Assembly (NCBI GenBank): GCA_914767715.1 | Contig: OU612071.1 | Location: 27,897,681-27,961,680, forward strand | DNA length: 64,000 nt | Direction of reading: 5' to 3' | Source: Membranipora membranacea | Lineage: Eukaryota; Bryozoa; Gymnolaemata; Cheilostomatida; Membraniporidae | Part shown: in pieces, positions 8,540 through 37,400 of the stretch | Numbering within the stretch: the first letter of the stretch is position 1 | Layout: every line of letters starts with the position of its first letter | The notes under the pieces: generated by a model | The model's database searches: none | What the model was told of the DNA's origin: nothing | The model's input: only the letters and a program-made list of their open reading frames with translations | Position numbers and translations under genes: made by a program

Positions 8540-10117
8540 CATAGAGATATTATATACTCTAGAGTGGACAATGTGTACAAAAATAGCATCAGTTTTTGTC
8601 CTACTTAATTGTTGCGAAATCCATGACACAACGCAATCTGGTTGTGCATGGCTAGTGCCTGTATCATAAAACCTACCATTGAGAATATACGTATTGAGTA
8701 TGGAAACTTAGATTTTTAGCGCGCTTAGAGCCATTTTTTCGGAAATCTTTTTATGTGACACTATGTGGATCACTTGCAGGTATTCTCACTTTCAATTCTA
8801 TGACGTAACAAAATCTGGTTATGTGTGGATAGTGCATGAATAATTGACTTTATCATTGGAAATATTAGAATTTGACATACAAATTTAGTTTACGGAACAC
8901 TCATAGCCATTTTTGTCAGAGAATCTCACATGTAGCACCATTAACATCACCTGCAGGTATTTTCTCTTCCAAAGTTAAAGTCAATGAATGAACGAACGAA
9001 TGAATTTTTGGACACAAATATCCATACCGTGTTTATTCAACCTATTTCCTAATTGGTGGCGTGGCTGAATAGTTAGCGCGCTTGCACACAATGCCTTCAA
9101 AGGGATTACACGCGGGAGGCCGGGGGAACCCCGGCCTGGCCGCGGCAGATTCTTTCATGTTTTTCCCATCATGGGAATGGTTAGAATCCACTGGATTCTA
9201 ACAATTTGAAATTGGAGTGAACCACAAAATCGAAGCATGGAACCATAGTGAATGACAGTGCTAGCTGTTTTCTGCCAGTTGTCAGGCATTTAACTTTGTC
9301 TCTCTGACTAAAATTTTACACCCTCAGTGAGTTCATTTTATCTGTCTGCTATTATGACTTCCAATTATACAAGGTGTACAAGTAACCCGTGGTTAAATAA
9401 TTTTCAGCTTGAAGATCTCGGGTTTTGGTTTGGCTATGTCATTTAAAGCTCCTAATTCCCTCTTCGGGGTGGCCACTTTTTTTTGCCGAAACTATTCAAG
9501 CCAACACAGCAGTTTAAATCAATAAATACATAAGCTCTTCTGCTGAGTCGCTGAGTATCAAGAAAACGTCGAATGGATAACTCAAGATACATGCTTGTCC
9601 AGATTGACTTGTGGCAGAAAACAGCTAGCCCTGTCATGGCAATGAATGTCTTCGCGGTTTATATTTGGCTTATTTTAATGGGAGAATAAGAAAAATTTTA
9701 TACTGACTGGAAGAGCAAATACCTGCAGGTGATGTAAATGATGTTACATATGAGATTCTCTGAAAAAATGGCTATAAGTGCTCCATAAACTAAATTTGTA
9801 TGTCAAATTCTAATATTTTCAATGATAAAGTCAATGATTCATGCACTATCCATGCACAACCAGACTTTGTTGCGTCATAGAATTGAAAGTGAGAATACCT
9901 GCAAGTGATCAACATAGTGTCACATAAAAAACTTCCGAAAAAATGGCTCTAAGCACTCTAAATTTCCATACTCAATATGTATATTCTCAATGATAAGTTA
10001 TAATGTTACAGGCACTAGCCATGCACAACCGGATTGCATTGTCATGAATTTCGCAATCATTAAGTAGGACGTTTTTAGCACTGCATTGTCCACTCTAGAG
10101 TATATAATAACTCTATG
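8540..10117. mobile_element. Foldback element with 8-bp target duplication GTTAGATG
   Basis: The 1578-bp element has inverted ends (CATAGAGATATTATATACTC at 8540; the complement ends at 10117) and exact 8-bp flanks GTTAGATG at 8532-8539 and 10118-10125. Each arm is about 430 bp (8540-8965 against 9715-10117), and a shorter outer pair occurs near the centre (about 9244-9280 against 9605-9640). Within each arm a unit of about 190-200 bp is present twice in tandem. The spacer holds a tRNA-like SINE (9056-9150). No transposase frame. The 8-bp duplication would fit hAT or P-type transposition. Confidence 0.88.
9056..9150 (+). mobile_element. tRNA-like SINE fragment
   Basis: GGCGTGGCTGAATAGTTAGC fits a box A followed by a GCGC stem, as in tRNA-derived SINE heads. 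The expected box B is poorly preserved (the sequence continues GGGGGAACCCCGGCC). It is not a functional tRNA gene because no cloverleaf closes. Confidence 0.45.
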
Positions 10118-10973: not shown

Positions 10974-12227
10974 CTGCAAGAGAAATGAAAGTCAGTTTAC
11001 GGGTAAAAATGCAACGACTCTAAATGTATGCAATACTGAATTTGTTGACATGAAAAAATTAAAATTTTGCAAAATGGATTTTTTAGATTTAAAGACTTTG
11101 TTTGAGGGCAGGTTAATTAATTTATGATTCTTATTCAGGACTTGATTTGTCATGTGAGCAAGATACAGCCTGTGAAATCACAACAAACTGAAGTTGTGGG
11201 GTCCTGAAGTTTTGGAGTTATGGCCATCATTTCACCTTGGGAACCAGCCGGATGTCATCCGTCAAAAAGTTTACTTGTAACCACGGTGATAAAGCACCGG
11301 ATGTGACGCACCCCAGGAGATTTGTTCATAATCAAAAGAGCAGTCGTCTCTCTGTCATAGTGTTGAGAAATTCACATGGATGTGGCTGACTAGTTTTAAA
11401 ATAAGGTTGAACTAACACTTAACACATATTCACTTATTGTTTGTTGGTACAATCTGTCGGATTATAACCTGTTATTACACTCTCTTCTCTCTCAAAGTCA
11501 AAGACAATCATTGTGACAAGAGGTGAATTATACTGTGAATATTGTGTTTAACTTTGGTAGTAAGCTTGATATGTTTTTTTCTGTTTTCAGAGGTCAACAA
11601 GTTACCTTTTGTTATCTATACACTTTTAAGAAAATCTCTATAAATAAATAAATACTAGTATCACCAGACGACTACTAGGCATCACTTGGATAATACTATT
11701 ATATTCTTAGTCACAGGTCTACTCCAAAACCTGGGATTTTGGAGTAGACCTGTGTTCTTAGTCTTAAAGCAACACAATGCCAATTAATGCTCATCATGAT
11801 GAATTTGTCGTACTTGTGCTCTGGAATTAATTAGTGTGCACAGCAGGGATCATCACAGAGCGCAGGTCTACTCCAAAACCTGGGATTTTGGCAATGTCTG
11901 ACAAGGTTTGGCTGCCCACTTGAGTCTAAGTGCTCATACTCCAGGGCGCAGGAACCTGCGCAGGTAACCTACGCCTGCGAGTCTGAGCACTTACTACATC
12001 AACACATTGGCCCCTGGGACACATCACAAGTGCTTGGATAGTTACTAAAAAACTGTGGTTTTACTGTCAATCTGGAGGAAATAGTGAGATCTGGAGTGAT
12101 AGTGAAATCTGGAGGGTCCCACCTAAATAGGGAGACTTGGCAAGTATTATTCACTGGAACCCGATGCCAGTAGTAACAATAAAAAATTTATGGTGTTATA
12201 ACTACCATCATTATTTTTCTATTTCAG
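10974..12227. other. Intergenic stretch before the THAP gene
   Basis: Contains the perfect hairpin at 11712-11754 and a related half-copy at 11862-11892, and no coding frame of note. A 5' untranslated exon of the plus-strand THAP gene should lie here or further left, because the first ATG sits directly behind an acceptor, but it could not be placed. Confidence 0.4.
11712..11754. repeat. Perfect 18-bp hairpin
   Basis: Arms CACAGGTCTACTCCAAAA and its exact complement surround a 7-nt loop CCTGGGA. The left arm plus loop recurs at about 11863-11892 without the right arm. Confidence 0.9.
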
Positions 12228-13601
12228 ATGCCTAGAAAAGAGTTTTTTTTTTGTGCAGCTGCCAACTGCGAGGAGATACATCACCTGTTTACTTTTCCAT
12301 CCAATGCTATAACTCGCCAAAAATGGGTGGATTGGGTCCGTGAGTCATTCAGAGACTTCAAACTTATCCAAACTAGTCGTTTATGTTGGAGATATTTTCG
12401 CAAAGAGGACATCAGAAATTACACCAGATATGTTCTTGGAGCCGAGAATAGGTGAGTTGTTATACAGTGATCATCATCGGTGACATGCTTTGGTTTTTTT
12501 TTATCCAGTTAAACCATTGCCCCTTTGTTTCATACACTACATTTAATGTCATGCTTTCTTGAATGTTTGGATATGATACGGATATAATATACAAATACTT
12601 TACACCTAACTGTCGGGAAATTCTACCTCAAGTTAGGATAGCCAGCATGGCCTTGTCTTAATTAGTCATAATCACCAACTTGTTCGGATGAACGCGTAAA
12701 GCCTTACGGCAACCTGCCAGCCAAAAAGTCTGTTCATAACAAGGCTACCAGCTAGGCCTAAAAATATGTTGTTTATCAACTATGCTATGATTTTATTTTT
12801 GTACTTTACTTACTATCTAAAACTAGCAGAGAAACTGTATATAATTTTATTAATATCGTAAAAATAGTATGCGCACGTTTGGTTTAGTCCGCTAGCTTAC
12901 ATGAATTGTCAAGTTGTAAGAGGGAAAGGTGTAAGATTTCTAAAAATAGTTACAGTATTGCATTTAATTGTTATGATAAAGGATTATTATAACAGACAAA
13001 ACATAGTTAGAGAATTGAATGTCGTTTCATCAGGATTTGATATTTATGACAGTCAAAGACTGAAATTCTCCACATAACTCCTGTCATGGTCAAAACACAC
13101 TTACCTGTTGTAACATCAGAGGTTATCACAACTATATGTCACCATTGTTAACGCATTTGGTGTCAGCAGCCTCAGCCTATCCTCAGCTGCAACCTCAGAG
13201 TGCAGAGCAGTTTACATGACATCACATTACTAACATAAAAGCGTCTGCTGATCCTCTGTCAGTGTAGCCTTGTACACGTGGCCATGGGTTTCGGTTTTTT
13301 TGGTCAAAACTGGCTGTGTGAACAAGGCTACTGTCAGTGTGTTTAGACCTTTATGATTGATAAAAATAGTGATCTATATGGAAACTACACCTATTAGAAT
13401 CACCTGCACTTTTATAGCCACATTGACAACATTTAATTTTTTTCTTGTTGCCATCAGAATGTACCTGCGCACCGATAGGGAAGTGTTACCGGGATATGTG
13501 GTTCCTGATGATATGCCAACACCAAGAAAGAAGCATGTTTTTACTCCTACAAAGGAAGAGAGAGAGTCTATCATTAGCAGTCTTCTGTCTGACCCTGAGC
13601 C
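12228..13601 (+). CDS. THAP-like zinc-finger module (exons 1-2 of the gene)
   Basis: Residues 1-85 carry the THAP layout: C9 and C14, then FPSN, K32-W33, and a C53-W-R-Y56-F-x-x-E-D-I block followed by VLPGYVVP, which corresponds to the AVPTIF end of the fold. THAP fingers bind zinc through C2CH. Here the last ligand, normally His in C-x-x-H-F, is Tyr56. Either zinc binding is altered, a nearby His (H18, H19) substitutes, or DNA binding has been lost. The module is split by an intron of about 1 kb that contains a 430-bp repeat also found behind the gene. Confidence 0.7.
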
Positions 13602-16600
13602 GTAAGTTTGACACATAAATCATATTAATCTGCAGCTGCTAATCAAAACACATTGACAGCAAAGCCTATCAGGAGGTATACCAGCTTTATAACATGCTAA
13701 ACATGTTATTACCAACTGATGCCTGATATTTTTAGATTGGATAAATAATAAATATAAAAATATGAATATAAAAAATTTACTAATATAATACTAATAAAAG
13801 TGCTGAATGTGCGGTACCATTATTATGAGACAAACCCACCCCTCACCTTATCTATTGCAAATATTTTTATTTATTAGCAGGGTTCCCTTCTAAGAAACCT
13901 CTAAGCTAGTTGATTACTAGCTAATTAATCACAACTAAATATATTCCAAGCTTTTAATGATTTTACTCTGATGAAAAATTCTTATAAATTATCACAGGTC
14001 AGCTAAGAAATCCCGACGAGCGCTTGCACTTGGTGAGGGAACAAGTAGCCAGTCAGATGTACACCAGCAGACGGGAGGCGATTTAGTTATTGGAGAACAG
14101 ACGGGCTCTCCTTCAGAAGTACCTTACTCGGAAACAACTGAGGTGTCTGAAGTTAGCCTTTTAACCCCAGTGACTGGAATAGCTGCACCTGCACTTGACA
14201 TGAGCTCAGACCTTCCCTCTCCATTGCAGTCACAAGTCCCCGATCCCTGTCTGCCCAATCTGGACTTGTATCCGTCTTCCCCGACCAATGTTGAGCCTGA
14301 TGATGTATTGGTTCATACAATACCAACTCTGTCTGAGGCAGTGCCGACGTCTTCAACCCCTACCAACCCAGTACAGATGTTACTTCCCACTCACCAGCCT
14401 CCCGCCATTTCAGTCTCACCTGCTCCATCTTCAGATAATCCAGTCTTCTTGAGATCTCTTGTACAAACAGACAGTCAAACTCGACCTAGAGGGATGGTGG
14501 ATGTGCCTTTGAGAGTTTATGGTGCTGTTCACATGCACAGTCAGGGTAGGTAATCGGTTGCTCAGGAGTTATGTTACAAATTTTGAATGGATGGCATAAC
14601 GAGGATTTTTTTTCAAATATTGCTGCAAGTTATTTGTTTGCCTTGCCTTGACATAATGTTAGCTAACAATCGATCTTGGTTAGTTAGGGTGGGTGTCTAC
14701 GTAAAGTAAAGAGGATGAGAAAAATTTTGATAGAAATAATTTTAGAAATTTCAAGCATCTATATCATGCGAATACGATACTCCTCTATGGTATTCATAAC
14801 AGGTATTAATACCATAGAGGAGTAAAGCATTCATAAAAATAATCATGCATCATGCAATGCTGTAACTCGCTGACTAAATGTTAACCCAACCAGTTGATAG
14901 AAAACTACGGAACATGAAGTGATATGTTATTGCTTTCCCCATCATGCATTGATTTACATTCTCATTTAGATAACTGTTTGTTATTGATATCTGCTGTATC
15001 TTCTACACAACTTTTTTACCTACGCCTGCCCATTGCGTCTATATTCAATTTGGTTCTTATATTTATTATTTCTATTATTATCTCTTTTAGCTTGCCAGGT
15101 TGATATTGTCAAACAAGCAAATATCCACACACAGACAGAATATAATCAGTAAGTTAATTATTCATATTTAAACACATCGCTCCTTCGGAATGAAGCACTG
15201 TCACAGTTTAATGAAGTCAAATTGATACTCTGGGTGCCCAACCTTTTCATTGAGGGCCCCCCCCCCCGCAACCTCACCATAAATTAAACACACATATATG
15301 GGTGTGCAGTATTCCATCTCTGCAGCGGGGAATTTATTTCAAAATACTGTGACTAGATGTACAGCTTTCCTTATTATTGTACAAATGACGAATGTAATAA
15401 ACGTAGGGGTGAAAATTGTTTTCGCTACTACGCGATTTTATCAAAAGGGTTGAGGGCCGCATAAAAATGGGGCCGCATGCAGCCCTAGGGTTACTGGTTG
15501 GGCAGCCCTGCTCTAATTCAATTCACTGCGTGATGCATTATTATATAATTTGTATTGTATTAGTTGACATCACATGACGTAATCCTGTCTGCCAACATCA
15601 TAGTGGGGATGTAAGAACTTACCAGGTTCACTTGAAACCACACTTTTCTTTTAGGACTGGTATAAAGAATTTCAGCGAGACCAGAGCAGATAAAAGGCTA
15701 CAGGAACTTGAAGAGAATAAAACTGTGAAAAGACTACAAAGTATAAAATCTCCTAGTCAGCCAGCTAAACCAGTACCTATAGTTATTGTTCCTGCACCAT
15801 CTAGGCCTTCTGCTGATGATCATCCTCCAGATACTTCCCCAGACACATCAGAAAAAGCTTCATCATCATCATCAGCTCCTACTGTGAGTACCAGTCGAGT
15901 TCTCACAAAAAGATTGGCTTTGTCTTTGTGAAAAATTCAGCAGGGTATTGACACCTTTTTTAACCTCAAAAATGGATTTTATACGCCACACTGATATCCA
16001 GATTAAACTATCAGCATAATATGTCAGTTTAGTCTAAGTCCCTCACATGTACAGATGTTTGTACTCAGGGCGTCATTCCAGACTCCTTGTGAAGATCATT
16101 GGACTTGGCTGCAATAACGGGTTATGGATGTAGTCAATTTTATGAAGATTCCATATACCCTATACTAAGTTTTAAATGTAAACCTGTATTGAGTGCATAT
16201 CCTTGTATTCACCAGATTCATGAATACGGCAGCTCTGAGTACGAGGCGAGCTCAGAAGAAAATGTCCAGTTCATAGATGACATGGAGGAGAATGAATTAG
16301 TGTACAAAACTTTGTGAGTGTAATTATTTTATTGATTTGATATATTCAGACAAGAAATGAAATTCCTCGATAAAAGTAATGGTTTTGTGCTTCAATAAAC
16401 AATGATCGAAAGAAAGTCGAAAATTCTTAAAATATGCTAGTTACTATAAAAAATCATTATAAAAGTAGCGGGAATTTGAAATAATGTTTTTTGATAACAC
16501 ACTGCGTTTTTTTATTGTCGCGAAATAACATAATGATGAATTGTAGAAAAAAATCAAATGAACTGTAAACACTTCCAAGGGAGCTACATATACAAAGCTG

Positions 16601-19600
16601 GTTAGAAAATTGTTCTTACAATGTTGTGTTGGATATTGACAGGTTTTTTTTATATTTACAGGGGAACTTCATGGTATGATGAGAAGAAGTTCATTGTCTG
16701 CCAAGACAACCTCCTTCAACTATTGAAGCCGTGTATACGATGTGGCATGGAGGCTTTGGTGGAGCAGCAGCAGGCATATGGGTGCTACGTGCCTTTCAAA
16801 ATATCTTGCCAGAGTGACAAATGCGGTCATGTTAGAGAGTGGGCTAACAGTGAAAAGGTGAATGGTGTGCCCATTCTAAATCTCCTCCTCTGTGCCACCA
16901 TACTCTTCACTGGCTGCCTTCCGACTAAATTTTTACGAGCCTTCAACTTCCTGAATGTCTCCACAGTGAGCCCCGGTACATTCTTCAAATACCAACGGGA
17001 GTATCTACACGGGGTAAGTCAAGTTTCCAAGAAATCATGTTGCTATGATCCATTATGTTATGTCTTGTGAGGGGGATTGAGATGGAATGGGATAAATCAT
17101 TCCGAATATGGTGATGTATTGCACTCATTGTCTACAAAGGCCGCGGACAAATTTGATTTTGTATATAATGGTAGTAAATCTATCAGACAATTTTATAAAG
17201 TCAGCCAGATCCATCACCTTAATGCAAAGTTGTGTTTTATGGTTTCGATATACTATCTATTTTGAGTGTTTTCTCTCTGAATTTTGAGTAATTTAAGCAG
17301 TCAAAAATAAAGTGAATATTTGTGTTCGATAACGCAGATAAAGCACCGCATTTAGGACAGGAATGTTAGATTGAATTGGTTTTACGGCGTGTATATTGGA
17401 GCTAGATAATCATGACTGAAGATATTAGCTAAGATACCGATTGGTATTAGGCACATGTATAAAAAGGAATCATATGATTGACAAAAAGTATTGACATATC
17501 CCTCCACCAGTGTATGATAACAGTGATTGTTTGTTGTGACATAAGATATAAAAGGCTGGCGACAGGCCGCCTAGAAGTCCGAGTTATTTTAAATTCAGGT
17601 CAGCTATATTTAGCCATGTATTTCAACAAGGAAGACTCGTCAGCGATGTTCATTTGGTTTAAGTGTTCTCTGAATGGACCATGACCTGTGATAGTGTTTA
17701 CAACATATGGCAGATGTGGCCTTCTGAGTTCTAATTATGTTATATTGCTGAAAGAGTAAAAATCTATGATTTCTGTAGCCAGAGATGGTTTTTAGCAGAA
17801 TTTACATTGTGCTATTTCGTTGACTAAGGGATCTCCAGGTTTTAATAGTCTGAATTATCTTTTGTTAAGGTTGTGAGGGAGGTGTATGAGAAGAGGATGG
17901 CGGAGGAGAGAGCCAAACTACAGCAGCCACTAAAACTGAATGGCGATGGGCGGTTCGACTCCCCTGGCCACAGTGCCATGTATGGCATCTACACATTTAT
18001 GTGTGCCGCAACCAGTAAAATTGTTGCAAACAGTTTGGTAAAGGTAAGTTATCTTGCATCATACAGTGAAAATTAAATTGTTTTGGATAAATGTGGATGG
18101 TGACATCAGTGTGATACAGAATCATTGAACTCCATAGCTGGAGTGGTGTAATTACCTTTATTTTGCCCAACAACGGGTTTGCAAAAATAGCCAGTCCCTG
18201 TGGCATTCTAGAAAAGCCCAAATCATCGACGCTGAAAGCAATTTATTACTGTTTGCAGTTATGAAAACAAGATAAATTCCTAGGCTATATTATTAATGCT
18301 AGCAGGGACAGCCGATCAGATCAATGTCAGATCAATCCCTGTGTTGAGTGTCCGAACTGTATAAGGTTATCCTGATAATTCCGTTCTATGAGAAGAATTT
18401 ATTTCAGTGTACACATAACACAAGATCGTCATTGGCTTTATGAATAATTTGATGCCAAAACTTTAGCGCATGAACACATTTTTCTATCTATTTTTCTCAC
18501 AGTGTACAGAGACAACTTCCTCTTCAGCTATGGAACTAGAGGGGCTAAAGCGCTGTAGAGCCTATCTTGATCTAAACAATGTCGCTGTCGAACAGCTTAC
18601 AACAGACCGCCACGTCAGTGTGAAGGCGTATATGAAGAATTCTTGGAAGGCTGTCAAACACTACTTTGATACTTGGCATCTCACAAAAGGTATGCTAGAA
18701 TCTCAAAAAGTAACACTGTATCATGTTTATAGAAGCTTCTATCCTAATAGAACTCAGCGTAAATATTTTATCACCCAAATCTATCCATCCATATCACACA
18801 TGCAGACAGTCATCGCAATAACAATATTATAAATGCACCCTACTCTCATAGCATAATCATATTATCGCAATGTAAACAAGACATGACACTGTGGTTTCTT
18901 CCTGGTCGAAATACCACAAATAAGCAGTAAATAAATGCTGTTGCTGTAGACAGGAGACATGAAAAGTAATCCTACACTAAATGACAATGAATTTTGAAAA
19001 TAGATAGATTGTGACTATGAATTCAGTTATCCTCATCTGATGGATTACTTATTGATGTTTTTGTTAACAAATCTGTTGTAGGACTGCGGAAGAAACTTAA
19101 TAAGTTGTCCACAAAGAAAGTTGGGTTCAAGCAAATTGGCCGCTGGATACCAGCCATTATAGCCCACCTATGGCATGTTATCACCAACACTGCTCCAGGT
19201 GACCAACGGATGGCATGGTGGAAGTCATGCGCAAATCATATTTGCAACATCCATGACTTGGAAGGAGACGGAATCGGAAAATGTAAGCACCCAGATGAAG
19301 AAGTTCGGTACAACGAGCAAGGGGAAGAACTTGTTGTTGAGTGGATTGTTCCAGGTTCGTTGACATTTGAATTAGCCTTTGCTCTGTTTGTTATGATTAT
19401 GCATTTTCCACCCAGATTTGCAAGGAAACAGGCCCACAGATCAGCAAATAAGTGCTATTTAGACACCTGTCTTGAACGTGGCTAATTCTGCAATAAGTTT
19501 CCTTATGCACTTGCCATACAAATGCGTAATTCTGAATCGATGATTTATTTTGAAAGACGAATCAAGTTGCCACATGTGATTCCTTATTACAGATACGCAG

Positions 19601-20995
19601 CTTGACTTGGAAACGAGAAAGGTACTGTGGGAGAAAGGGTTTATGGAGGCAATAAACATGGCCAGTGGGACCTCGACAGGAGAGTTGGAGAGCTTTCATG
19701 GCGAACTCAACCGTAATGCACCCAAAATGGAGGGGTTTTCCTACTCTGGAATGCTTTCACGGTAAGAACTTTACACAGACTGGTGCGCTAACTATACACA
19801 CTAGGTATGCACACATGGCCGTCTGCATGTGGATTACAACAGGGATAATTTTTCTATAATAGTTGTGGGTCCTGTGTAATATGTTGTAACAAATCTTAGG
19901 AACACCAAGTAAGTAAGCCCACTGGTCAATCATGATTAATCCCAAAGTGCCAAACATAAGTTCACAATTCCACTGCCATGAGTAAAGTAAAGCAACAAGG
20001 ATTATGTAAAAATATACTAGAGACCACTAGTGACTTACATAACCCAACTACACTGCAATATATTGGCTCACGAGCATACAGCTTTTTGGTAGTTTACTTT
20101 GATTGGGGATTAATTTTGTGATTGATTTTGTAACATCCAAGCGTGGGAATCACACTGAAATTGCCGTGGGAATCACACTGAAATTTCCGGAAATATCTTA
20201 TTATTTTTCATGTTAAACACCAACGAAGCACTTGAACCAGACAGGTTTTATTTATGAAACCTGTCTGTACAAGTGCTTAGTAGTCTATAGCATGAAAAAT
20301 AGTAATAAATTACTGCGAAATTCACACGCTTGGTTGTTTCATAAATATAATCTGATAAATCTCTACTTATTTTTAGAACACAGCTGACCATTTTACAACA
20401 CAACGAAAATTGCCAACGGTCGGTAAAGATGATGGCAAGTGATCCTACCAAACCGAGGAAAGTAATACACCGCTCGAAAGCCACCAAACAAACCCCGACA
20501 GTTCAGTTTGTAAGAGAGGATGCCACATACAGTGAGTCAAAATTCATTATCATGATGAAATAATGGTAAATTGAAAAAGTTTCCCCAGACAACAAGTTGC
20601 AGAAACATCCAAAACATAATGTTGTATTATTAGTCATTTTGAGGAGCCACAACTACCGGAAACACCCAAATATCATTACCAGCCGACATCAAGTGCTCAG
20701 ACTGCAAACTGGTGTAGTTAGTCAGCAAACATTGATAACCTACTACACTTGACTGGAAGTCCGCTCAACTTTACAAGAAGTTAATTAATTCAATCTAATT
20801 GTTACAGGTTACATAGATGACATGTACAAATGCCTGGATGGTTATGTAAAAAACCGAACACGGCCTCTCCTCAATGATATTGAGCCTCCAACACTCGCGT
20901 CTAAAGGACCTCAATACGATTCCATCGAAGAAGTGGAGGCTGAAATGGAAAAAAAAGACGAGGTGGGTTGGCAAAACCTCACCACATTACGCTGA
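12228..20995 (+). CDS. THAP-like and DDE transposase-like protein, 13 exons
   Basis: Exons: 12228-12451, 13458-13601, 13998-14545, 15091-15148, 15655-15883, 16216-16313, 16662-17013, 17870-18043, 18503-18689, 19082-19354, 19593-19761, 20377-20531, 20808-20995. All junctions keep frame and give 932 residues. Order: THAP-like module (1-85), Ser/Pro-rich linker (about 120-400), Cys-rich module (about 440-490), then a core with GDGRFDSPGHSA (D577, D581), TDRH (D644), FDTWHL and GELESFHGEL (E793, E795). The core fits a widespread animal family of transposase-like proteins; Kolobok-like ancestry is possible but unproven. Intact splicing over a dozen introns argues for a host-used gene and against a fresh transposon. 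The protein would act in the nucleus on DNA. ATG directly follows the acceptor TTTCTATTTCAG, so a 5' untranslated exon is implied. The C-terminus is uncertain because an in-frame TGA at 20993 precedes a second coding-like tail. Confidence 0.8.
12600..13040 (+). repeat. Dispersed repeat in intron 1, also found at 22974-24000
   Basis: Starts TGTCGGGAAATTCTACCTC and ends near ACAGACAAAACATAGTTAGAG. The same start, middle (AACGCGTAAAGCC, ACCTGCCAGCC) and end occur at 22974-24000, where the central unit has been amplified. Confidence 0.75.
14778..14824. repeat. Perfect 17-bp hairpin in intron 3
   Basis: Arms TACTCCTCTATGGTATT and its exact complement, with a 13-nt loop. Confidence 0.9.
15227..15513. 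mobile_element. hAT-like MITE in intron 4
   Basis: Inverted ends CTGGGTGCCCAACCTTTTC and GGTTGGGCAGCCCTG, with an inner GGGCCGCATGCAGCCC, are the layout of a common group of short non-autonomous hAT elements. A poly-C tract follows the left end. A clean target duplication was not found. Confidence 0.6.
16662..17013 (+). CDS. Cys-rich module exon of the transposase-like gene (exon 7)
   Basis: The 352-bp exon encodes YDEKKFIVCQDNLLQLLKPC followed by IRCG, then about 18 residues, a Cys, and CQSDKCGHVREW. The pairs C-x-x-C and C-x4-C-x-H suggest a zinc ribbon. This arrangement (FIV plus a leucine-rich stretch, C-x-x-CG, then C...GH...W) precedes the catalytic core in related animal proteins. The exon also encodes a hydrophobic stretch (ILNLLLCATILFTG) that is more likely a buried helix than a membrane span. 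Confidence 0.7.
17870..19761 (+). CDS. Transposase-like catalytic core (exons 8-11)
   Basis: Exon 8 carries GDGRFDSPGHSAMYG (first acidic pair), exon 9 LTTDRHVSVKAYMK and HYFDTWHLTKG, exon 10 the insertion-like WHVITN region with HPDEE, and exon 11 STGELESFHGELNRNAPK. Together they give a D / D / E series of the RNase H-like transposase fold, with the acidic residues about 65 and 150 positions apart. None is missing, so catalysis is not ruled out. Which Glu (793 or 795) is catalytic was not settled. Confidence 0.7.
18290..18415 (+). repeat. Dispersed repeat, partner at 36280-36405
   Basis: GCTAGCAGGGACAG, GATCAGATCAATGTCAGATC and CCTGTGTTGAGTG match the reverse complement of 36280-36405. It lies in intron 8 of the transposase-like gene. 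Confidence 0.6.
20132..20340. mobile_element. Hairpin MITE in intron 11
   Basis: A near-complete inverted repeat. Outer ends read AACATCCAAGCGTG and CACGCTTGGTTGTTT; the inner stem is AAGCACTTG...ACAGGTTT against AAACCTGTCTGTACAAGTGCTT around an ATTTATG loop. No coding frame. Confidence 0.8.
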
Positions 20996-21294
20996 CACAA
21001 AGATATGCAGAAAGCCGAGGGCGGAGCCGCGGCCGTGGCAGAGGCAATATCTCTTGAGCAGAGCAGCAAGCTACTCCACAGCCTAAAGAACAGCCTGGTA
21101 GAGGAAGACCCAGCTCAGCTGAAGCAGCAGAGCAGCAAGCTACTCCAAAGCCTAAGAAACAGCCTGGTAGAGGAAGATCCAGCTCAGCTGCAGCAGATGA
21201 CAATTTGAGTCAGGTAATTGTTACCTCTAAAAAAGGCAAAGCCAAGGGGAAAGCACCGATGAAGGGCAAATCTCTGTCAAAAAAATCCTCATGA
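20808..21294 (+). CDS. Last exon region and AT-hook-like tail of the THAP gene
   Basis: The exon frame runs to TGA at 20993. Further right, the frame ending at 21294 encodes AEQQATPQPKEQPGRGRPSS and a second copy, AEQQATPKPKKQPGRGRSSS, then a Lys-rich end (SKKGKAKGKAPMKGK). PGRGRP is an AT-hook core, so a DNA-binding tail is likely part of the protein or its ancestor. The same frame upstream reads SRGRSRGRGRG, then a TGA at 21055. Joining the tail needs either a small intron (donor GAG|GTGGGT at 20963, weak acceptor near 21063) or repair of a frameshift, possibly at the A8 run at 20948-20956. The true terminus is unresolved. Confidence 0.5.
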
Positions 21295-22880
21295 CTTTTC
21301 GTTTAAAAAACATAGTCAAGTCAATTTTTATTCCATGTACGCTATATAATTACACATTTTTTATTTTCTACCCGCTGTTGCATCATTTCCAAGGGGAAAG
21401 CACCGATGAAGGGCAAATCCCTGTAAAAGAGATTATCATGACTTTTCATTTTGAAAACATAGTCAAGTCAATTTTTATTCCATGTACGCTATATAATTAC
21501 ACATTTTTATTTTCTACCTGCTGTTGCATCATTTCCAGGGGGAAAGCACCGATGAAGGGCAAATCACCGTCAAAGAAATCGTCGTGACTTTTCATTTTCA
21601 TTTTGAAAACACAGTCAAGTTAATTTTTATTCCATGTACGCTATATAATTACACATTTTTATTTTCTACCTGCTGTTGCATCATTTCCAGGGGGAAAGCA
21701 CCGATGAAGGGCATATCCCCGCCAAAGAAATCATCGTGACTTTTCATTTTCATTGTGAAAACAATTTTGAAAACACAGTCAAGTCAATTTTTATTCCATG
21801 TACGCTATATAATTACACATTTTTATTTTCTACCTGCTGTTGCATCATTTCCAAGGGGAAAGCACCGATGAAGGGCAAATCCCCGTCAAAGAAATCATCG
21901 TGACTTTTCATTTTCATTTTGAAAACACAGTCAAGTTAATTTTTATTCCATGTACGCTATATAATTACACATTTTTATTTTCTACCTGCTGTTGCATCAT
22001 TTCCAGGGGGAAAGCACCGATGAAGGGCATATCCCCGCCAAAGAAATCATCGTGACTTTTCATTTTCATTGTGAAAACAATTTTGAAAACACAGTCAAGT
22101 CAATTTTTATTCCATGTACGCTATATAATAACACATTTTTATTTTCTACCTGCTGTTGCATCATTTCCAAGGGGAAAGCACCGATGAAGGGCAAATCCCC
22201 GTCAAAGAAATCATCGTGACTTTTCATTTTCATTTTGAAAACAATTTTGAAAACACAGTCAAGTCAATTTTTATTCCATGTACGCTATATAATTACACAT
22301 TTTTATTTTCTACCTGCTGTTGCATCATTTCCAGGAGGAAAGCACCGATGAAGGGCATATCCCCGCCAAAGAAATCATCGTGACTTTTCATTTTCATTGT
22401 GAAAACAATTTTGAAAACACAGTCAAGTCAATTTTTATTCCATGTACGCTATATAATTACACATTTTTATTTTCTACCTGCTGTTGCATCATTTCCAGGG
22501 GGAAAGCACCGATGAAGGGCATATCCCCGTCAAAGAAATCATCGTGACTTTTCATTTTCATTTTGAAAACAATTTTGAAAACACAGTCAAGTCAATTTTT
22601 ATTCCATGTACGCTATATAATTACACATTTTTATTTTCTACCTGCTGTTGCATCATTTCCAGGGGGAAAGCACCGATGAAGGGCATATCCCCGCCAAAGA
22701 AATCATCGTGACTTTTCATTTTCATTGTGAAAACAATTTTGAAAACACAGTCAAGTCAATTTTTATTCCATGTACGCTATATAATTACACATTTTTATTT
22801 TCTACCTGCTGTTGCATCATTTCCAGGGGGAAAGCACCGATGAAGGGCAAATCCCCGTCAAAGAAATCATGACTTTTCAT
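21247..22880 (+). repeat. Tandem array of 11 chimeric gene-end units
   Basis: The mark AAAGCACCGATGAAGGGC starts at 21250, 21397, 21543, 21695, 21859, 22011, 22175, 22339, 22503, 22667 and 22831. Spacings are 147, 146, 152, 164, 152, then 164 bp; the 164 form has an extra 12-bp block around AACAATTTTGAA. Each unit has two parts. One is the last codons of the THAP gene (KAPMKGKSPSKKSS plus stop), preceded by an acceptor-like TTTCCAG or TTTCCAAG. The other matches 25825-25900, the exon-1/intron-1 border of the minus-strand P2X7-type gene (shared ATTTTTATTT-C-TACCTGCTG-T-GCATC). A worn extra copy lies at 23040-23140. Confidence 0.9.
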
Positions 22881-22973
22881 TTTGAAACATAGTCAAGGGA
22901 TTTTCAGTTTTGTGCATTATATACTTATATTCCAAACAATAGACTAAGTGTTCTTATTACTTATCTATCAAAT

Positions 22974-24000
22974 TGTCGGGAAATTCTTCCTCGTCAGGAC
23001 AGCCAGCATGGGCTTGGCTTAAATATTCCCGTTGAGTAAGGTAATTGTTATCTCTAAAAAAACCAAAGCCGAGGGGAAAGCACCGATGAAGGGCAAAGAA
23101 ATTATTGTCACAGTTCATTTTCATTTTGAAACCATAGTCATAGCCAGCATGGGCTTGGCTTATTTGCTCCTGTTATCCAACTTGTTAGGATGACCGTGTA
23201 AAGCCTAACAGAAACCTGCCAGTCGAAAAGTCTGTTTCACACGGCTATCAGCCAGGCAATAAAATATGCTGTTTATCAACTTTACTATGATTTTATATGC
23301 ATAGCAAGCATGGGCTTGGCTTATTTATTCCCGCTATCCAACTTGTTAGGATGAACGCATAAAGCCTAACGGAAACCTGCCAGTCGAAAAGTCTGTTTCA
23401 CACGGCTATCAGCCAGGCAATAAAATATGCTGTTTATCAACTTTACTATGATTTTATATGCATAGCAAGCATGGGCTTGGCTTATTTATTCCCGCTATCC
23501 AACTTGTTAGGATGAACGCATAAAGCCTAACGGAAACCTGCCAGTCAAAAAGTCTGTTCCACACGGCTATCAGCCAGGCAATCAGACATGCTGTTTATCA
23601 ACCATACTTTGATTTTTTATGCATAGCCAGCATGGGCTAGGCTTATTGTTCCTGCTATCCAAAATGTTAGGATGAACGCATAAAGCCTAACGGAAACCTG
23701 CCAGTCCGAAAGTCTGTTTCACAAGGCTATCAGCCAGACAATAAATTATGCTGTTTATCAACCATACTATGTTTATACAACTTACTATCTAACGCTAACA
23801 GAGAAACTAACAGAGAAACGGGATGCAATTTGATAAGTACAGTGGACAAATAATATGCACACATTTGGTTTAGTTGGCTACATAAAGTGTCAAGAGTGTA
23901 AGGTTGCTAAAAATAGTTACAGTCGGAACATTTATAATTGTTATAATAAATTATTATTGTAACCTGTTATGACAGACAAAACATATTGAGGGAATTGAAT
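22974..24000 (+). repeat. Amplified dispersed repeat with 161-bp tandem units
   Basis: The mark AGC-A/C-AGCATGGGCTTGGCTTA starts near 23143, 23303, 23464 and 23625, a period of 160-161 bp, with a partial unit at 22999. The flanks match the single-copy version in intron 1 (12600-13040). Confidence 0.85.
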
Positions 24001-24290
24001 GTCAGAATAGAATGTAATGTCCAGTAATATTGCATAATATCACAGTAAAAACCAAGCTGGAGCAGCATAAGTGGCTAAAGGACATACATTGGCACAATAA
24101 GATTTGTATTAACCATCGGTATTCATGCCTAGCACTTTCAGTTGGCAAAGTAATAAAGTCTTTGAATTGAAATTAGATATAATGCTATCTACATGTATAG
24201 AAAAATTAAGGTGGTTTACAATATGAGCTCCTTAAAACTTGACTAAACAGATGGTACAATATTTAATTTTAATATTAATTTAAAAGATTT

Positions 24291-26021
24291 TTAGTTTATT
24301 GTCTCGGGAATATATATAGAAAAGTCATGATTGGCGAACTCCTCATCAGAGTCAGTGTCAAAATAGCAAGCTCTGACCATCATGTATATACATGATGGCA
24401 GAGGTCTTCTCTCTTTCTTCCTTATCTCTGGAAACGTCCAAAAGATGATTGATCTATATGCAGCTAGGCGCTGCTGTCTCCTCTTTAATCTGTTGATCTG
24501 GTCTTCAGACCAGACATTACTGGGGACCAGTGTCTCCGCATCAGGATATCGTTCAGCTATGATAAAAAAAAATATTGGTAGTGAGATTATGAAGCTAAGT
24601 TCAGACATTTATTGAAAACTTCTGAAATCTCTGTTACATGATCACTCTTTGCTGAGTTGGCGAGACTTGCCGGTCTCATTTCCAAATCCCTTCATTGATC
24701 GAACAAGAAACCTTTTCATTCAACTGTTAGCAAATAATTTGGTTGATTGAGAGGCCAGAAGAGTGAACACAGTTAGGAAATTGAGAGTGGTAATCAGTGG
24801 TTTAAAAACCTCTCACATTTTGCAATAAAGAGTGCTCCAGTGATTTCACACAATTAAAATTATCTCCCAACACAAACATGAGCAGATTTTGACTTGCATT
24901 GTTTTGGCAAGTCCTGGATCTGTATTAGTGTGTTTAATTTAAATTGACTGTTGTTTTGGGGAGCGATCAGCAAAATAATTGCTTATTACAACGCTAATAG
25001 TTACTGAGCGCCTGTACCAAGGAGTAACTTACTGTTACTCTTTGCCTATACTTACGATGATGGCAGGCATAATTCCTGTACATAACTCTCAGTGGAGCAG
25101 GTCTTAAGAGGTCGTGTACGTCCTGTGAGTCAGCCATACACCTGATGTCTTCCTCTGGTCTCTTCTGCTCCCAAATCTTGTGCGTAGCACAGCAGTTATT
25201 CATGTGGTGATCGGGCCACACATGACACTTCCCACACAAGCACCATTTTGGATTGAGATCTACAGCCATCTGCTCCTACAAAATCAGCACAGATATACAT
25301 AATATATAATCAAGGAGGAATAGAGGAGTTACTCCTTGATATGATATAATATATAATTATATATTATATACACCAAAGCTGCGATACAAGGGCACAGTCA
25401 AGAGGAGTCTCAAATATCTCGACATTACCAACAAATGGTTGGCAGAAGCTGACAAATAACAGAGCGAGTTAGCGCAAATTGATTCAGAAGCAGAAGTCAT
25501 CATCGGAACCGATGGACTGCCAGTAGTATATGCACCAAGGAGGCAGCTGTAACTCCTTGTATGCAAACATCCAACACTTGCAGTGTTTCGTATAGTTGAT
25601 CGCTCTCTATTAGTCTACAGCAAGCTTTCTGTGCTCTGCTCATTTACTCCAACAATAATGAAGTTACAGTTTTGTCTAGCCCTGTCTATGTTCTGTCAAT
25701 GAACTAAACCTCAATCAATGAACTAAACCTCTGTCAATGAACTAAGGTTTAGTTCATTGGTTCTGTCCTGTCCAATTACTAAGCTTAGTGTTGATAATAA
25801 TTTTGTCATACCAATACCACAAATTTTATTCCCTGTATGCTATTGAATGGAATTACAAGTCAAGTGACATTTTTATTTCCTACCTGCTGTGGCATCTCTT
25901 CTTGTTGCTGCTCTTCCTGCTGCCCAACATTCTCTTGCAGCCTTTGTGCAACAACTCTTCTAGGCTGCAAATCCCAAGGGTTGTCCAGGGCCTCAAGGCT
26001 GGAGGAACTAGATGAAGACAT
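24291..26021 (-). CDS. P2X7 ballast-domain protein without channel, 3 exons
   Basis: Minus-strand exons 26021-25884, 25275-25056 and 24556-24291 join in frame to 207 residues. Residues 1-46 are Ser-rich, then Gln/Glu-rich. Residues 57-78 read WCLCGKCHVWPDHHMNNCCA (C58, C60, C63, C74, C75), the zinc-binding Cys cluster of the P2X7 cytoplasmic ballast. Residues about 141-180 read INRLKRRQQRLAAYRSIIFW followed by RRPLPSCIYMMVR, matching the NR-x-x-AYR...W...RRVIPSC segment that ends P2X7. No membrane segment is present, so this is a soluble protein. In vertebrates P2X7 is thought to have gained this domain by fusion with a P2X4-like channel; invertebrates keep it as a separate module. It is tail-to-tail with the THAP gene. 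The ATG (M-S6-LEALDNPW) is the first in frame, although an acceptor-like CTAG at 26008 leaves an upstream exon possible. Confidence 0.82.
25360..25565 (+). mobile_element. LINE reverse transcriptase C-terminal remnant (tentative)
   Basis: The plus frame reads LRYKGTVKRSLKYLDI, then NKWLAEAD and a stop, resembling the R-x-K-D-x-x-K-R-x-L-K-x-x-D-I stretch near the end of many LINE polymerases. It lies in intron 1 of the ballast gene between AT-rich hairpins, with copies of GGAG-GAGTTACTCCTTG on either side. Short and diverged. Confidence 0.4.
25690..25770 (+). repeat. CAATGAACTAAACCT direct and inverted repeat
   Basis: CAATGAACTAAACCT occurs twice and a third copy runs CAATGAACTAAGG into GTTTAGTTCATTG, making a local hairpin. 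Confidence 0.75.
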
Positions 26022-29000
26022 AATAAAGCAAGGAGTAAATTAAATGTTCTATGGAATGTGTGACTCGTTTTGTTGGATTCTTGTCGATGAATGACTTTTA
26101 ATTTTAATGTCAAATGATCAGTGAATAAATTGCGGGTTGAGGTATTCTCATCCTCACCAATCTTGTTTACAATCAATGAGGAAATAGAGCTATAATTCAC
26201 ACACTTTGATTGGCTACTCCTGAGATGCTGGAAAAAAACTTTGCTCGCTAATTCCCTCGTAGTATGTCATCACAATATGATCACGTGACGTGATCGGCCA
26301 TGTTGCAAATGTTACATAATTCCAAGGGGGTTACACCCACATTTTTCCAGAGATGACAACTCTTGTAAATCAGTGTTTACACCTGCTGTATCTTGCTCAC
26401 ATGGGATATCAAGTCAAGAAACATAATCCTAACATAATTAACCTACCCTCAAACTAAGTCTTTAAATTGTTGTATATTTTGGAGTTGGCCCTCCTTGATT
26501 CACAGCCCCCCCCCCCTCCTGATATGCGTGTCTGTAATGGAGCACAGTCCATGTAGACTAATGTCTAAAAACCTACTTTGAAGTCTGGTATGTGGTCCTG
26601 ATTGGCTAACCAACTACATACATATTGAGGTGCAAAGGTCATTACCTTCCTTTCATTGCTTTACCTCTGACCAAGTGGCAGTGGAGCTCAGAATATTGAA
26701 AAACCCTCCAGCCTCCCCGTTTACCACCCTACATGTCTGTACTCACATTTTGTTTTGTATAGTTGTAGATAGAGTGGAAAGAGTGTCATTGGGACACCAT
26801 GTGGACTGAAAGACCCTTATTGAACGATTTGGAGACCATGCTTATCCTGTTTGAAGGCTGATCATCCCCACGATCTAGAGATCAACAGTTGCGTTTGGAG
26901 ACCAATCTTGAAGCCAGTGACTAACAATCACTAAGATTTAATTTGTCACAGCTGGGGTGAATCGGTTTTCACCAAAATGTCGGCGTCCTATTCTTCGCCA
27001 AAATACCTTACTCAGAATTATTTTTATTCAAAAATGATGACCCTTTACTGGAATGTTTCGATGTGTTGTACAAATAAATACCTGAATCAAATGATGAAGT
27101 TGCAGCCCGTTGATTGATTAGGCAGCAAAATTGACATGAGAAAAAAACAAGTATCAGAAATAACATTTCCAGTAGTAAGCCTTTCAATAGAACTTTGCAA
27201 ATTTGCCTAAATAAGGAGTATTCCAATTAAAACAAGAGTGAAGCCTTTTTAAACCAAACTCTTGCTATCATTGAGTTGAAGTTAACATTTTGGGGACATG
27301 GCCTTTGACAAGTCTCAGAATCTTAGAAGGGAGTGATATGAAATGATCCAGGCAGTTCAAAATTAAAAGGCTCCTTCCCTGCCACTCCCTCTCATCCACC
27401 GGATCCAAACTGGATTCATGTCAAGTTATGTGACTACAAACTACTTTACTGTGGCAAGCATGCACCACATTTTCAATTTTTGTATTTAATGAATTGACCA
27501 ACAAATCAACAAAACATAAATACATAATGAGATAGGTGACACATCATATGCACATAATACTCAAACAATCTACCAGGCTGTCAATATTAAATAAGAAATA
27601 TTGACAAGCTGAATGGACTGGTGTGAGGAGCACCAGTTTAATTGCTGTCCTCTCAGGCAAGAGTCATCAATTCAACTATAATAATCAATTGAGAGAAAAT
27701 TCCCAAAACAATATACTGATAATCCAACAAACCATAAGTCTTTTGAGCAGTGTGAGCCAGAGTCCAGCTGCACTGAAGATCCCTTCCTGCAGGTTAGCGG
27801 CCAAGTGATTTTTTTTGTTGCAGATTGCAACAACTTTTATACACTGTGCACTTAATTCATGACCAAAAGCTGAAGGGCTTTAACCTTTCCAGTCAACAAG
27901 ATAGTGATTTAATTACTGCCTCCTTCCACATGGCCTGGATCTAGGCAAGCACGCAGGTACTTAGTCTACAACATTTGTCACATCATATACTATGACCTAT
28001 AATTTGTGATCCCTAGTAAGGCCAATATTTTTGTTATTTGATAGTAGTTATGCTTGGCCATGTCGCTTGGCTAGTTTCCTATGTTTACTCCCGAAACGAA
28101 AGAGGTTCTGCATGACAATCTATCTAGATGTAATTTGATAGTGATCTGGCACCCATGTATTGACAATGGAACTGCACCAATATTTCAACCCCTAATATTC
28201 TTGGGTTGTGAACTCATACCAGACGGGCTTAGGGATAGAGGTACTTCCTACAGGGAGAATGATCTTATACTCTGAGTCTCTTACTTTTTATCGATTCTCT
28301 GACCATTTATAGTATGAAAATCATGAAAGACTCCAGTATGCTCGAGCCTTGAGTTGCATGTTCTGCAGTCTATTAGGCAAATAAAGATACGCTCTTATAT
28401 ATACCACTTATTACAAGCTTAATAATTACTATGTCATTATCCAATTAATGACAGACAGATGTGCTTCACATTTTTCCTTCCTTAAATCTGAAGATGTCAT
28501 AGGGTTGTGCTTGTAAGCAAACACTTGAAGAACCAATGCGCTTTCATAATAATGAATCAGTACGCTTTGAATTCATTCCTGGGACAATAATTTATTGTTA
28601 CATCATTCAATCATTCTAATGACTGTAGAGGGGTAACAATTATGTTAATTCTAATATTAATAGGGTTGTGGGCTCTGGAGGAGTCCTAGACAATAATCAT
28701 AGTACATTTATTTACTTTATAGATTATTTTTTCTGATAATTCAATGTTGATGATGTTATAGTGTGTGTCAAAGCAGTTAACTTTCTCCATCCTCCTTGGC
28801 AATTAGATTTTCTAGACAGATTACAGAGGAAGAGAGAGGGTCTTGTTGTGAAATACATGAATAAGCACAATTATTATACCAACATTGATGTTGTCAGTGA
28901 TAAGTTAATTTATTTCACTATTTGACAGGTGCCAGAGGTCACATGTACTTTGGTAGCAATAAATTAATTATGTAAGCAAGTTCCCATCACCACCTCAAAC

Positions 29001-30471: not shown

Positions 30472-31276
30472 ACATACATACATACATACATACATACATA
30501 CATACATACATACATACATACATACATACATACATACATACATACATACATACATACATACATACATACATACATACATACATACATACATACATACATA
30601 CATACATACATACATACATACATACATACATACATACATACATACATACATACATACATACATACATACATACATACATACATACATACATACATACATA
30701 CATACATACATACATACATACATACATACATACATACATACATACATACATACATACATACATACATACATACATACATACATACATACATACATACATA
30801 CATACATACATACATACATACATACATACATACATACATACATACATACATACATACATACATACATACATACATACATACATACATACATACATACATA
30901 CATACATACATACATACATACATACATACATACATACATACATACATACATACATACATACATACATACATACATACATACATACATACATACATACATA
31001 CATACATACATACATACATACATACATACATACATACATACATACATACATACATACATACATACATACATACATACATACATACATACATACATACATA
31101 CATACATACATACATACATACATACATACATACATACATACATACATACATACATACATACATACATACATACATACATACATACATACATACATACATA
31201 CATACATACATACATACATACATACATACATACATACATACATACATACATACATACATACATACATACATACATA
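30472..31276 (+). repeat. CATA tetranucleotide microsatellite, about 201 units
   Basis: An essentially pure CATA run of 805 bp, followed to 31324 by units with extra A insertions. Long frames on both strands here are repeat translations and not genes. Confidence 0.99.
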
Positions 31277-31361
31277 ACATACATACATAACATACATACA
31301 TAACATACATGCATACATACATACAAAGATGGTTATTAGTCATGCTTTTGCTGCAATTATT

Positions 31362-34479: not shown

Positions 34480-37400
34480 CCCCCAGTACTTAACACTAAA
34501 TGAGAATCAAATTGGATTCCCTTTTTTTAGTTCACTTCTCCCTCAATTGAATCATCTTGATGCCAGTATCAATCATAGTTGATTATTATGAACTATCAAA
34601 TCACAGCTGTTTTTTCAATCAAAAGGAATGTCAGCCTCAAACATGATTCAAGACTGACATTAAGCAGGACAGCCATGGCAGCAAAAAAACAACGCTATTT
34701 TCCTGTGTGTACTGAGCCACATGATGTTTCTTCCTTCCCAGACCTATCATGGCGAACTAAAAGATTACAGTAGACTGGAGAAGAGAACAACAGATCAGCA
34801 GTCTATGGCATAAAAACTTTTAGATCAATGATTTACCCATTTTAAATATGATTATGTAAGTACAAGCCACTTGCACGGTGAAACTGGGGACAGCTCATTT
34901 ATTCAGAACTATGACTTCACTTGGCCCAGACTCTCTATCTGGATAGTGTGCAGTAGCTCTGGTGCTACTAATTTATGCAACTAGTCTCCGACCTCGACCA
35001 GGGGAAAGGTGCACTTATTAAGTCGCTTGGGCTTATCGCACAGCCTGATATATCATGCTGTTGACGGCTGTTACTATGCCAACCATGGCATTAACAGATA
35101 ACAGAGAATCTTGGTTCATTTCTGGAGAGGCCGCATGAGAAAAAGTGACCACATCCAAGTTAGTCAGCAGGCGCAGATTATCCACTTTGGAACGAGTAGC
35201 TTGAACAGCTCAGCTTGGTATTATAGAACATGGGCTTGTACTCATTTTGTCAGTTCTGGAGCTTGCGTGCCGATGATAAGCAGGAACTGGCACGGACCTT
35301 TTTCAAGCCAGGCAGTCTCGACCTAGCCTCTTTCTGACAGCCTAAGCATGGGTGATTAGCTCAATACTAATAAATATTTTCCACAATCAAGGGTGATCTG
35401 GTTGGTGAATGTTTTTGCCTGCTCAGTGCTCATCCCAATTGCTGGCCTGTGCCACATCTGCACACTGTTGAATGAAGTGCTCAGCACCTGGATTTACTTT
35501 GTACCGGGGGACTCTGATATTTCCTGTTCTCTCTCTGTCTGTAGGGAGTCCCAGTTGCAGGGTCACCCGATGCTACTGCCATCCTTCTTGTCCTCATATT
35601 TATGTGTAGTGATACCCAGTCCTAGCATCAACACCAAACAGTGGTGGTTAAAATTCAGACTAACAAACTTACGATTTTGATATCAAGGTGAGGATAGTAC
35701 AATAACTGAGACATGCTTGTTCCACCAAGCTGCTAGAAGCTCACCGATCAGCATACCTGATTCCGATTTTTCTCGGTGTATCAAGTGAAACCCACAGGGC
35801 TACTAAAGCTCACAAAGACTTCAACCAAGAAAGGCATCATACATAAGTTTAATTTGGACTTTACCATATGTCATCAACCCTCCAGCTTAAGATAGCACCA
35901 CACGTATCAACTCAGATCAGATCACTAAACTCTTTCTAGTCTTGGTTTCAAATTATTTCCATTGTTTGCATTTTTGGGGAGTTGTCTGCATACAAAACTG
36001 ATAACGCGGCGACCTCCGTAACATTGTAGTTTTTTGCTGATGTTTGGTGTTTTCGAACAACAAATTTCAGTGAACACATAATCTCTTACACCATTAGATT
36101 GAGTTCAAATCGAATTGATTAAGCTTATAATTAATCTATTTATAACATAATTAAGTCTATCATAAGAGTATATCATATTACGTTGGTGACCATTACCTTT
36201 GTTATATTTGCCACTTTGTTACACTTTGTTAATGTTGACTACCAATTCGGGTGTTCAATGCTCAATCTTAGTGTTATAGTCACTGCATTAAATTCATCTT
36301 ATGGATCAGAAATATTAACGTAATCTTATACAGTTAGAACACTCAACACAGGGACTGATCTAACTTTGATCTGATTGCCTGTCCCTACCAGCATGAATAA
36401 TCTAGACTGAGATATTGTCTTGTTAACAAAACTGCAAACATTAATTTGGGAATACCGATTGAAGATATATTTTTACCCATGAGTTGCCAGAGCTTTCAGC
36501 AGCATGTAAAAAGTGTTAGCACCGATTGCAACTTGCAATCTTTCTCTTATGCACAACTAGAGACAGCAGAGATCATTGTTAAAATTACCAATGAGCAATC
36601 ATTTATCACAGCCCATCCTTTATAATACGCTGATGGTGAGGGGAAAACTCTGAGGGGAAAACTCTGATTTCAGATAATCAGAGGTAAAGATTAATGGACA
36701 AAAGGCAAATGATCGGGTAACAGTTTAATAAGTACTTAGTCTGAGGAAATGGTCAGCTCACCACCTTGACTTGTATTTGGTAGCAAATCATATACTCCAG
36801 TGATATGTCATCACCTTTTCTGCTTTATTAATCATAAGCCCATCTTGTGTACAAAGTGTTTTTTTTCTTCTCCATAACTATATTTGAGGGTAGAACAAGA
36901 CTGGCATATGTGAAATTGACATTTTTATTGCGCTCTCAATTTTAAACTTGATGAGTTGTCTTCTCTCTACCCATGGTGGGATAACTCCTTCTCACAATGA
37001 CAAAAATTGATTTCTATCCGATATAATGCAATCAAGAAAACACTTCAGGCCTAAGAGCATAAGAAGTACACAATTGGCTTGATATACCAATTCCACATTG
37101 CGTCGATGAGTTGTGCTTATGTAGCAAAATAAACTTGCATAACCGGTTGATTCTTTGAGAGCTTACTTTTCATAGTGATTAAAACTAAACGGCGTTTGTT
37201 TATAGAAAAAACCCTACGCCGTCTGAGTGTACCGAGAGTGTACTACTACAACTATTTCTTGAATTGAAATGTTTTTTGCTCATTTCTGTTATCACATGAT
37301 ACCTCCAGGTCTCTCAATAAACTATCCCAAATTATGGGGGTGAAATTTCCCCAACTTCATCACGATCTGAGAGGTATAATAATGGTGACAGTGATTGGTA

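Follow-up and report, generated by a model that had tools for sequence, protein, structure and literature searches.

A hypervariable minisatellite composed of parts of two genes, probably within a Kol0-type Kolobok transposon of the bryozoan Membranipora membranacea

We have analysed a 64,000-nucleotide stretch of the Membranipora membranacea genome (contig OU612071.1, positions 27,897,681 to 27,961,680; hereafter the window, whose own numbering is used throughout), and consider it very probable that a tandem array found there is a hypervariable minisatellite inside a DNA transposon of the Kolobok superfamily, Kol0 type. The transposon measures 15.4 kb (11093-26462), with terminal inverted repeats of ~90 bp and TTAA target duplications, and carries a plus-strand gene for a THAP/DDE transposase and, convergent to it on the minus strand, a gene for a protein with a ballast domain, which we call KolX. 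An earlier reading of the same DNA, made from the sequence only, had described the array as a fusion of the tails of two neighbouring genes; both genes proved to be the interior of one transposon. A neutral minisatellite in a recently active element is the simplest account of what we observed.

Extent of the element and its copies

The ends of the element were placed as follows.
11089-11092, no strand assigned: left target-site duplication, TTAA (end comparison of 11 copies)
11093-11181, plus strand: left terminal inverted repeat, starting AGACTTTGTTTGAGGG (inverted-repeat and end comparison)
26373-26462, minus strand: right terminal inverted repeat, ending CT (inverted repeat and end comparison; 17 genomic matches at 96-100%)
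26463-26466, no strand assigned: right target-site duplication, TTAA (end comparison of 11 copies)

We searched the species' own genome with two array units as the query, and obtained 102 matches on seven contigs, which were grouped by hand into 16 arrays (that of the window included) and one isolated fragment. Of the 15 arrays that lie outside the window, 10 were taken, each within 20 kb of its surroundings, for comparison with window positions 5001-32000, and matches of at least 150 bp were listed. These ten copies had been picked for having an array, and the presence of an array in all of them therefore carries no weight. All ten match the window from a point within 11083-11089 to a point within 26464-26468, with internal gaps in some, and beyond this span the only match listed was one other repeat, in one copy. 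The two genes and the array recur together as one 13-17-kb unit in every one of the ten. Both-sided target duplications read TTAA in 10 of the 11 copies (window included) and TTAT in the remaining one, with flanks that differ from copy to copy; the inner termini are AGAC at the left end (AGAG in one older copy, described below) and GTCT at the right. The inverted repeat, measured as 11087-11181 against 26373-26467, is 82% identical, its outermost bases including the target site. From the common ends, and from TTAA duplications set in differing flanks, it follows that the interval singled out by the sequence-only reading is part of a 15.4-kb transposon. The result bears on one part of the condition that this reading had set for its own refutation, a ballast-gene border that is a separate repeat dispersed genome-wide, in that the border recurs wherever the element occurs.

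A search with the right end alone, which is independent of the array query, found 17 places at 96-100% identity, 16 of them being the array loci. One right end, at C5:28829917-28830011 (minus strand, 96%), had no array match in the unit search, and may belong to a copy that has no array or has lost part of its interior.

Divergence from the window, measured outside the array, is 0.24-0.61% for nine copies and 4.12% for the older copy. The coding sequence is intact, with neither stops nor missing codons, in 6 of the 10 copies for the transposase body and in 5 of the 10 for KolX, and a comparison of the older copy with one young copy gave ratios of nonsynonymous to synonymous rates of 0.42 (transposase body) and 0.30 (KolX). 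The element has apparently been active recently.

Number of units

With a degenerate tail copy excluded, we counted 11 (window), 9, 11, 14, 8, 21, 11, 8, 8, 6 and 7 transposase tail copies per element, and 12 in one further element copy that was read over the array only. In the copy with 6 units the counterpart of 22104-24346 is missing, and with it the end of the array. Three copies that are 0.11-0.19% apart outside the array have 8, 11 and 21 units, and unit number thus changes much faster than sequence. The array lies inside the element ends, is found in many copies and varies in unit number, as is expected of a tandem repeat borne by a transposon.

Structure of the array

The array and its parts are listed here.
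21242-22898, plus strand: tandem array, ten of its chimeric units being full and the eleventh truncated (repeat scan, self-alignment)
21242-21304, plus strand: transposase tail part of unit 1, where the gene itself ends, with its last codons and its stop (21291-21293)
21322-21388, minus strand: part of unit 1 like the KolX exon-1/intron-1 border, recurring in units 2-10
23032-23138, plus strand: twelfth, degenerate transposase tail copy, extended on its 5' side (in 10 of 11 element copies)

Tail copies start at positions 21242, 21389, 21535, 21687, 21851, 22003, 22167, 22331, 22495, 22659 and 22823. Eleven units of 146-164 bp had been claimed; the spacing holds, as do ten full units, and the eleventh (22823-22898) ends short of the ballast-derived part that the first ten carry. 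Each unit opens with CCAAGGGG or a near variant, continues with the codons KAPMKG...KKSS-stop (changed in some units) and then a spacer, and, when full, ends with 60-odd bases corresponding to the KolX exon-1/intron-1 border at 25821-25901.

This junction of THAP-gene codons with the ballast-gene border had been proposed on sequence grounds, together with an alignment as a check, and it was borne out. The alignment of a unit with 25821-25896 gave an E value of 2.7e-8 within the window, and that of unit 5 had 56 identical positions, 5 mismatched positions and 15 gap letters. Unit 3 scored 70, as compared with no more than 32 in any of 2000 dinucleotide shuffles; for its ballast-like part, the best score in 1364 other comparisons, which were made with window tiles on both strands outside the array, the ballast border and 23000-23150, was 33. 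The match is far beyond chance.

Among units 3-10, those two apart are more alike than neighbours (98.95 vs 97.38% identity; permutation p 0.0085), which suggests that unit number has changed by two-unit steps. The older copy has units of 146-150 bp only, all of a CCAAG type. The chimeric unit therefore predates the split between young and older copies, and the 152- and 164-bp types probably arose later. A 24-base pattern of the unit had 0 exact matches in the viral and prokaryote collections scanned.

The transposase and KolX genes

The gene models used are these.
12228-21293, plus strand: THAP/DDE transposase gene, 13 exons inferred (Pfam matches, homologue, copy comparison)
12228-12451, 13458-13601, 13998-14545, 15091-15148, 15655-15883, 16216-16313, 16662-17013, 17870-18043, 18503-18689, 19082-19354, 19593-19761, 20377-20531 and 20808-21293, plus strand: transposase exons
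21057-21196, plus strand: two 69-bp repeats coding for PGRGR motifs of the transposase tail (repeat scan, translation)
25884-26021, minus strand: KolX exon 1; the second part of the array matches its 3' end together with the initial ~60 bp of intron 1 (25821-25901 for the whole match)
25056-25275, minus strand: KolX exon 2, cysteine-rich ballast part (PF20478 match, translation)
24291-24556, minus strand: KolX exon 3 (gene model across copies)

The transposase matches the Pfam THAP domain (PF05485, 27.3 bits, cut-off 23.9), with Tyr at the histidine position of the C2CH motif in the window copy (LCWRYF, by eye), and the 'Mutator-like' family PF20700 (41.3 bits). DxxH and H2CH motifs could be recognized by eye in the translation (LTTDRH, FDTWH, HICNIH...CKH, ELESFH), and a homologue in Watersipora subatra (P0002) shares 41% identity across 98% of the query. 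The PGRGR motifs of the tail we take to be AT-hook-like.

The window copy of this gene is broken upstream of its tail, where an A-run near 20953 has shifted the frame and an in-frame stop lies at 21055-21057. Neither the nine young copies compared nor the older one has a stop at the codon matching 21055-21057; the window's length of the A-run is found, among the compared copies, elsewhere only in the older copy, C7_5.32. Protein P0008 (157 aa, 97% identical, probably from the same species) is open past both lesions to KKSS, and a more distant relative, P0009 (56% identical over 60% of the query), has a similar KKGKAP...KKSS near its end. A spurious tail, as the upstream stop and frameshift might imply, was thus rejected. 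Judged from these translations, the repeated array codons are the true C-terminus of the transposase; the sequence-only reading was right, given P0008, P0009 and the unbroken copies, that they are the gene's last codons, and the peptide stands as the gene's tail in other element copies, the window's own frame being interrupted as described.

The joined KolX protein matches PF20478 (P2RX7_C), the intracellular or ballast domain of P2X7, with 29.8 bits (cut-off 23.5), and seven cysteines were counted in the ballast domain. A sequence search of PDB with KolX gave no meaningful match, and none to P2X7.

Classification and relation to known elements

As described in PMC9587614, the Kolobok superfamily has TTAA duplications and 5'-RR...YY-3' ends; an H2CH zinc motif and THAP are given for it in PMC6004289, and a DDE transposase with a C/DxxH signature is a further mark of it. 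The element has the 4-bp TTAA duplication, RR...YY termini (AG...CT in 11 of 11 copies), THAP and a DDE domain with DxxH and H2CH. Kol0, in the account of Kojima and Bao (PMC9587614), encodes a transposase and KolX, a protein with a ballast fold and seven cysteines, which they propose as the source of the ballast domain of vertebrate P2X7. At the level of sequence, the P2RX7_C match with seven cysteines places the second protein here as the counterpart of KolX. The likeness to Kol0 as there presented (PMC9587614) thus comprises TTAA, RR...YY, DDE with DxxH and a separate seven-Cys ballast protein, whereas the Membranipora element holds two internal arrays, one of them a chimera of its own two genes.

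Two other placements were rejected. KolobokP, of the same superfamily and also listed for Membranipora membranacea, is described in PMC9587614 as having terminal direct repeats of 450 or 660 bp and a His-Me nuclease; in the present element the ends are inverted repeats of ~90 bp, no long terminal direct repeats or His-Me nuclease were seen, and the second protein matches P2RX7_C. The 4-bp TTAA duplication excludes a MuDR/Mutator-type element with a long target duplication, which we take to be 8-11 bp.

Tandem repeats inside transposons, Kolobok-type ones included, have already been described (multiple cases are listed in PMC9659126), and this array is an example of a known phenomenon. A close parallel is the Xstir repeat of the Xenopus Xmix/T2 miniature inverted-repeat transposable element (PMC6004289, PMC9659126), likewise amplified inside a TTAA, AG-ended Kolobok-type element and traced to an internal segment by one of these sources and to the terminal inverted repeats by the other. 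Xmix/T2 is nonautonomous, whereas the Membranipora element is gene-bearing and has a unit of coding and intronic origin. Tandem repeats inside a DNA transposon are also reported for Tetris (PMC4079207) and Galileo (PMC3573991); those of Galileo, by its abstract, lie in its long terminal inverted repeats, in contrast to an array between two genes. We found no published description of an array made from the two genes of a Kolobok element itself, in a literature mostly judged at title or abstract level.

Do the units function?

The sequence-only reading had offered two explanations, alternative last exons that would change the basic tail or the 3' end choice of the transposase-like protein, and a neutral satellite that arose where two genes were joined. 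The second is supported as to origin, with both genes and the array inside one multi-copy transposon. The first is not supported by the sequence features we examined, and we hold it to be quite improbable.

An acceptor-like site, claimed for every unit, is present on the plus strand in 10 of 11 and absent from the first; when scored with a consensus matrix, seven units reached 9.81 (at the 99.3rd percentile among the window's AG sites) and three 6.16, and there is a good plus-strand donor-like site at 21213. Splicing from 21213 to CCAAG-type sites would keep the KAPMKGK frame, and the seven units of the older copy are all of this type, with open tails. However, CCAG-type units shift the frame: 7 of the 10 acceptor-like sites are shifted by one base and from 21213 leave the KAPMKGK frame, and in the window only units 5 and 7 yield an intact in-frame tail, unit 2 being in frame with an early stop. 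Nor does each unit have a polyadenylation (poly(A)) signal; none of 11 plus-strand hexamer forms occurs at 21290-22937, and the first AATAAA is at 23258. The tail columns are also more variable than the rest of the unit (12/53 vs 8/111 in units 1-10, p 0.009; 6/53 vs 3/111 in units 3-10, p 0.059). In the test for excess synonymous change that had been proposed, the array codons of units 2-10 behaved as expected without selection (3/9 changes synonymous, 24-29% expected, P 0.37-0.50); the gene's own copy had 3/3 (P 0.013-0.023). The donor-like site claimed for the other strand is present in all ten full units, with scores of 3.97-5.58 vs 9.39 for the parent KolX donor.

Several of our observations weigh against a neutral minisatellite in a Kol0-type element. 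The acceptor-like sites score as high as the 12 inferred transposase acceptors (3.90-10.17). With the unit consensus as reference and the gene copy taken in, the distinct changes number 12, of which 6 are synonymous (23-27% expected), a mild excess that also speaks for the use of the units as exons. The difference between 3/3 in the gene copy and 3/9 in the array, with an array root chosen by the analyst, has a Fisher p of 0.18, and relaxed constraint in the array is accordingly not proved. A possible hint of constraint is that, in most copies, the first two units and the last are alike. Finally, the placement in the lineage rests on architecture and motifs rather than on a transposase tree.

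One may also conceive of a self-referential array kept by the transposon, in which unit number would set tail choice or self-silencing and array length would act as a dial of activity. The acceptor-like site and the exact tail match found in every later unit make such a scheme conceivable; we regard it as very doubtful.

More improbable still, as judged from the sequence, the array might give rise to small RNA antisense to the transposase that the element encodes, or to double-stranded RNA where the two genes converge. In all 10 later units, 21-31 bases match the transposase tail exactly, both genes converge on the array, and 20 minus-strand AATAAA hexamers lie in it; as a precedent, Su(Ste)/Stellate is a repeat locus that silences a gene resembling itself (PMC8412255). 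Exact matching to KolX, however, extends to at most 12 bases, and descent from the tail followed by homogenisation already accounts for the exact matches.

An ordinary satellite between two unrelated host genes, the appearance that the window by itself gives, is refuted by the ten other copies, in which genes and array share ends and target duplications.

Proposed origin of the array

For a neutral minisatellite, the following course of events may be envisaged. The chimeric unit would have arisen in a single ancestral rearrangement inside the element, prior to the divergence of the young copies from the older one, for example by tandem duplication with breakpoints at ~21242 and 25901, together with a deletion that placed KolX intron 1 beside the transposase stop. 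Recombination between units, or repair-linked slippage, would then have altered unit number, partly by two-unit steps. The acceptor-like site would be a by-product of the antisense, pyrimidine-rich KolX exon sequence set before the tail. The array would travel with the element, most likely serving no function.

What had appeared to be the amplification of a gene end thus becomes the birth of a satellite whose parent sequences and junctions can be seen, along with one older copy and ten young copies, the window among the latter. With 6-21 units among copies in one genome, change in unit number is measurable. The KolX-bearing Kol0 lineage also gains a candidate member from a bryozoan, apparently one with recent activity. 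Gene pairs of the THAP-plus-ballast kind that are annotated in invertebrates may, as this case suggests, be transposons.

Other features of the element and its neighbourhood

A second internal array was found in the element.
23139-23771, plus strand: 161-bp unit, about 4 copies (repeat scan, self-alignment)

Plus-strand AATAAA hexamers at 23258, 23419 and 23740 in this array could serve as the poly(A) signal of the transposase. Searches for a tRNA or Rfam origin of the array gave no match at the thresholds used. Positions 12608-13023, in transposase intron 1, are 70-83% like pieces of 22971-24003 in the same orientation, as would result from an internal duplication or a nested repeat.

Outside the transposon, a diverged fragment of eukaryotic small-subunit rRNA lies at 34848-35169 on the plus strand (model positions 51-430, 89.6 bits), and is apparently a pseudogene or repeat. 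An 854-bp ACAT microsatellite of about 213 units (30472-31325; 99% matches) is open in six frames. Inverted-repeat structures at 8540-10117 and 2276-3952, with aligned arms of 434 and 308 bp, respectively, look like further transposons. An open frame in 56680-57408, which we take to resemble part of chitin synthase, is followed by a 19-bp tandem repeat (56997-57347).

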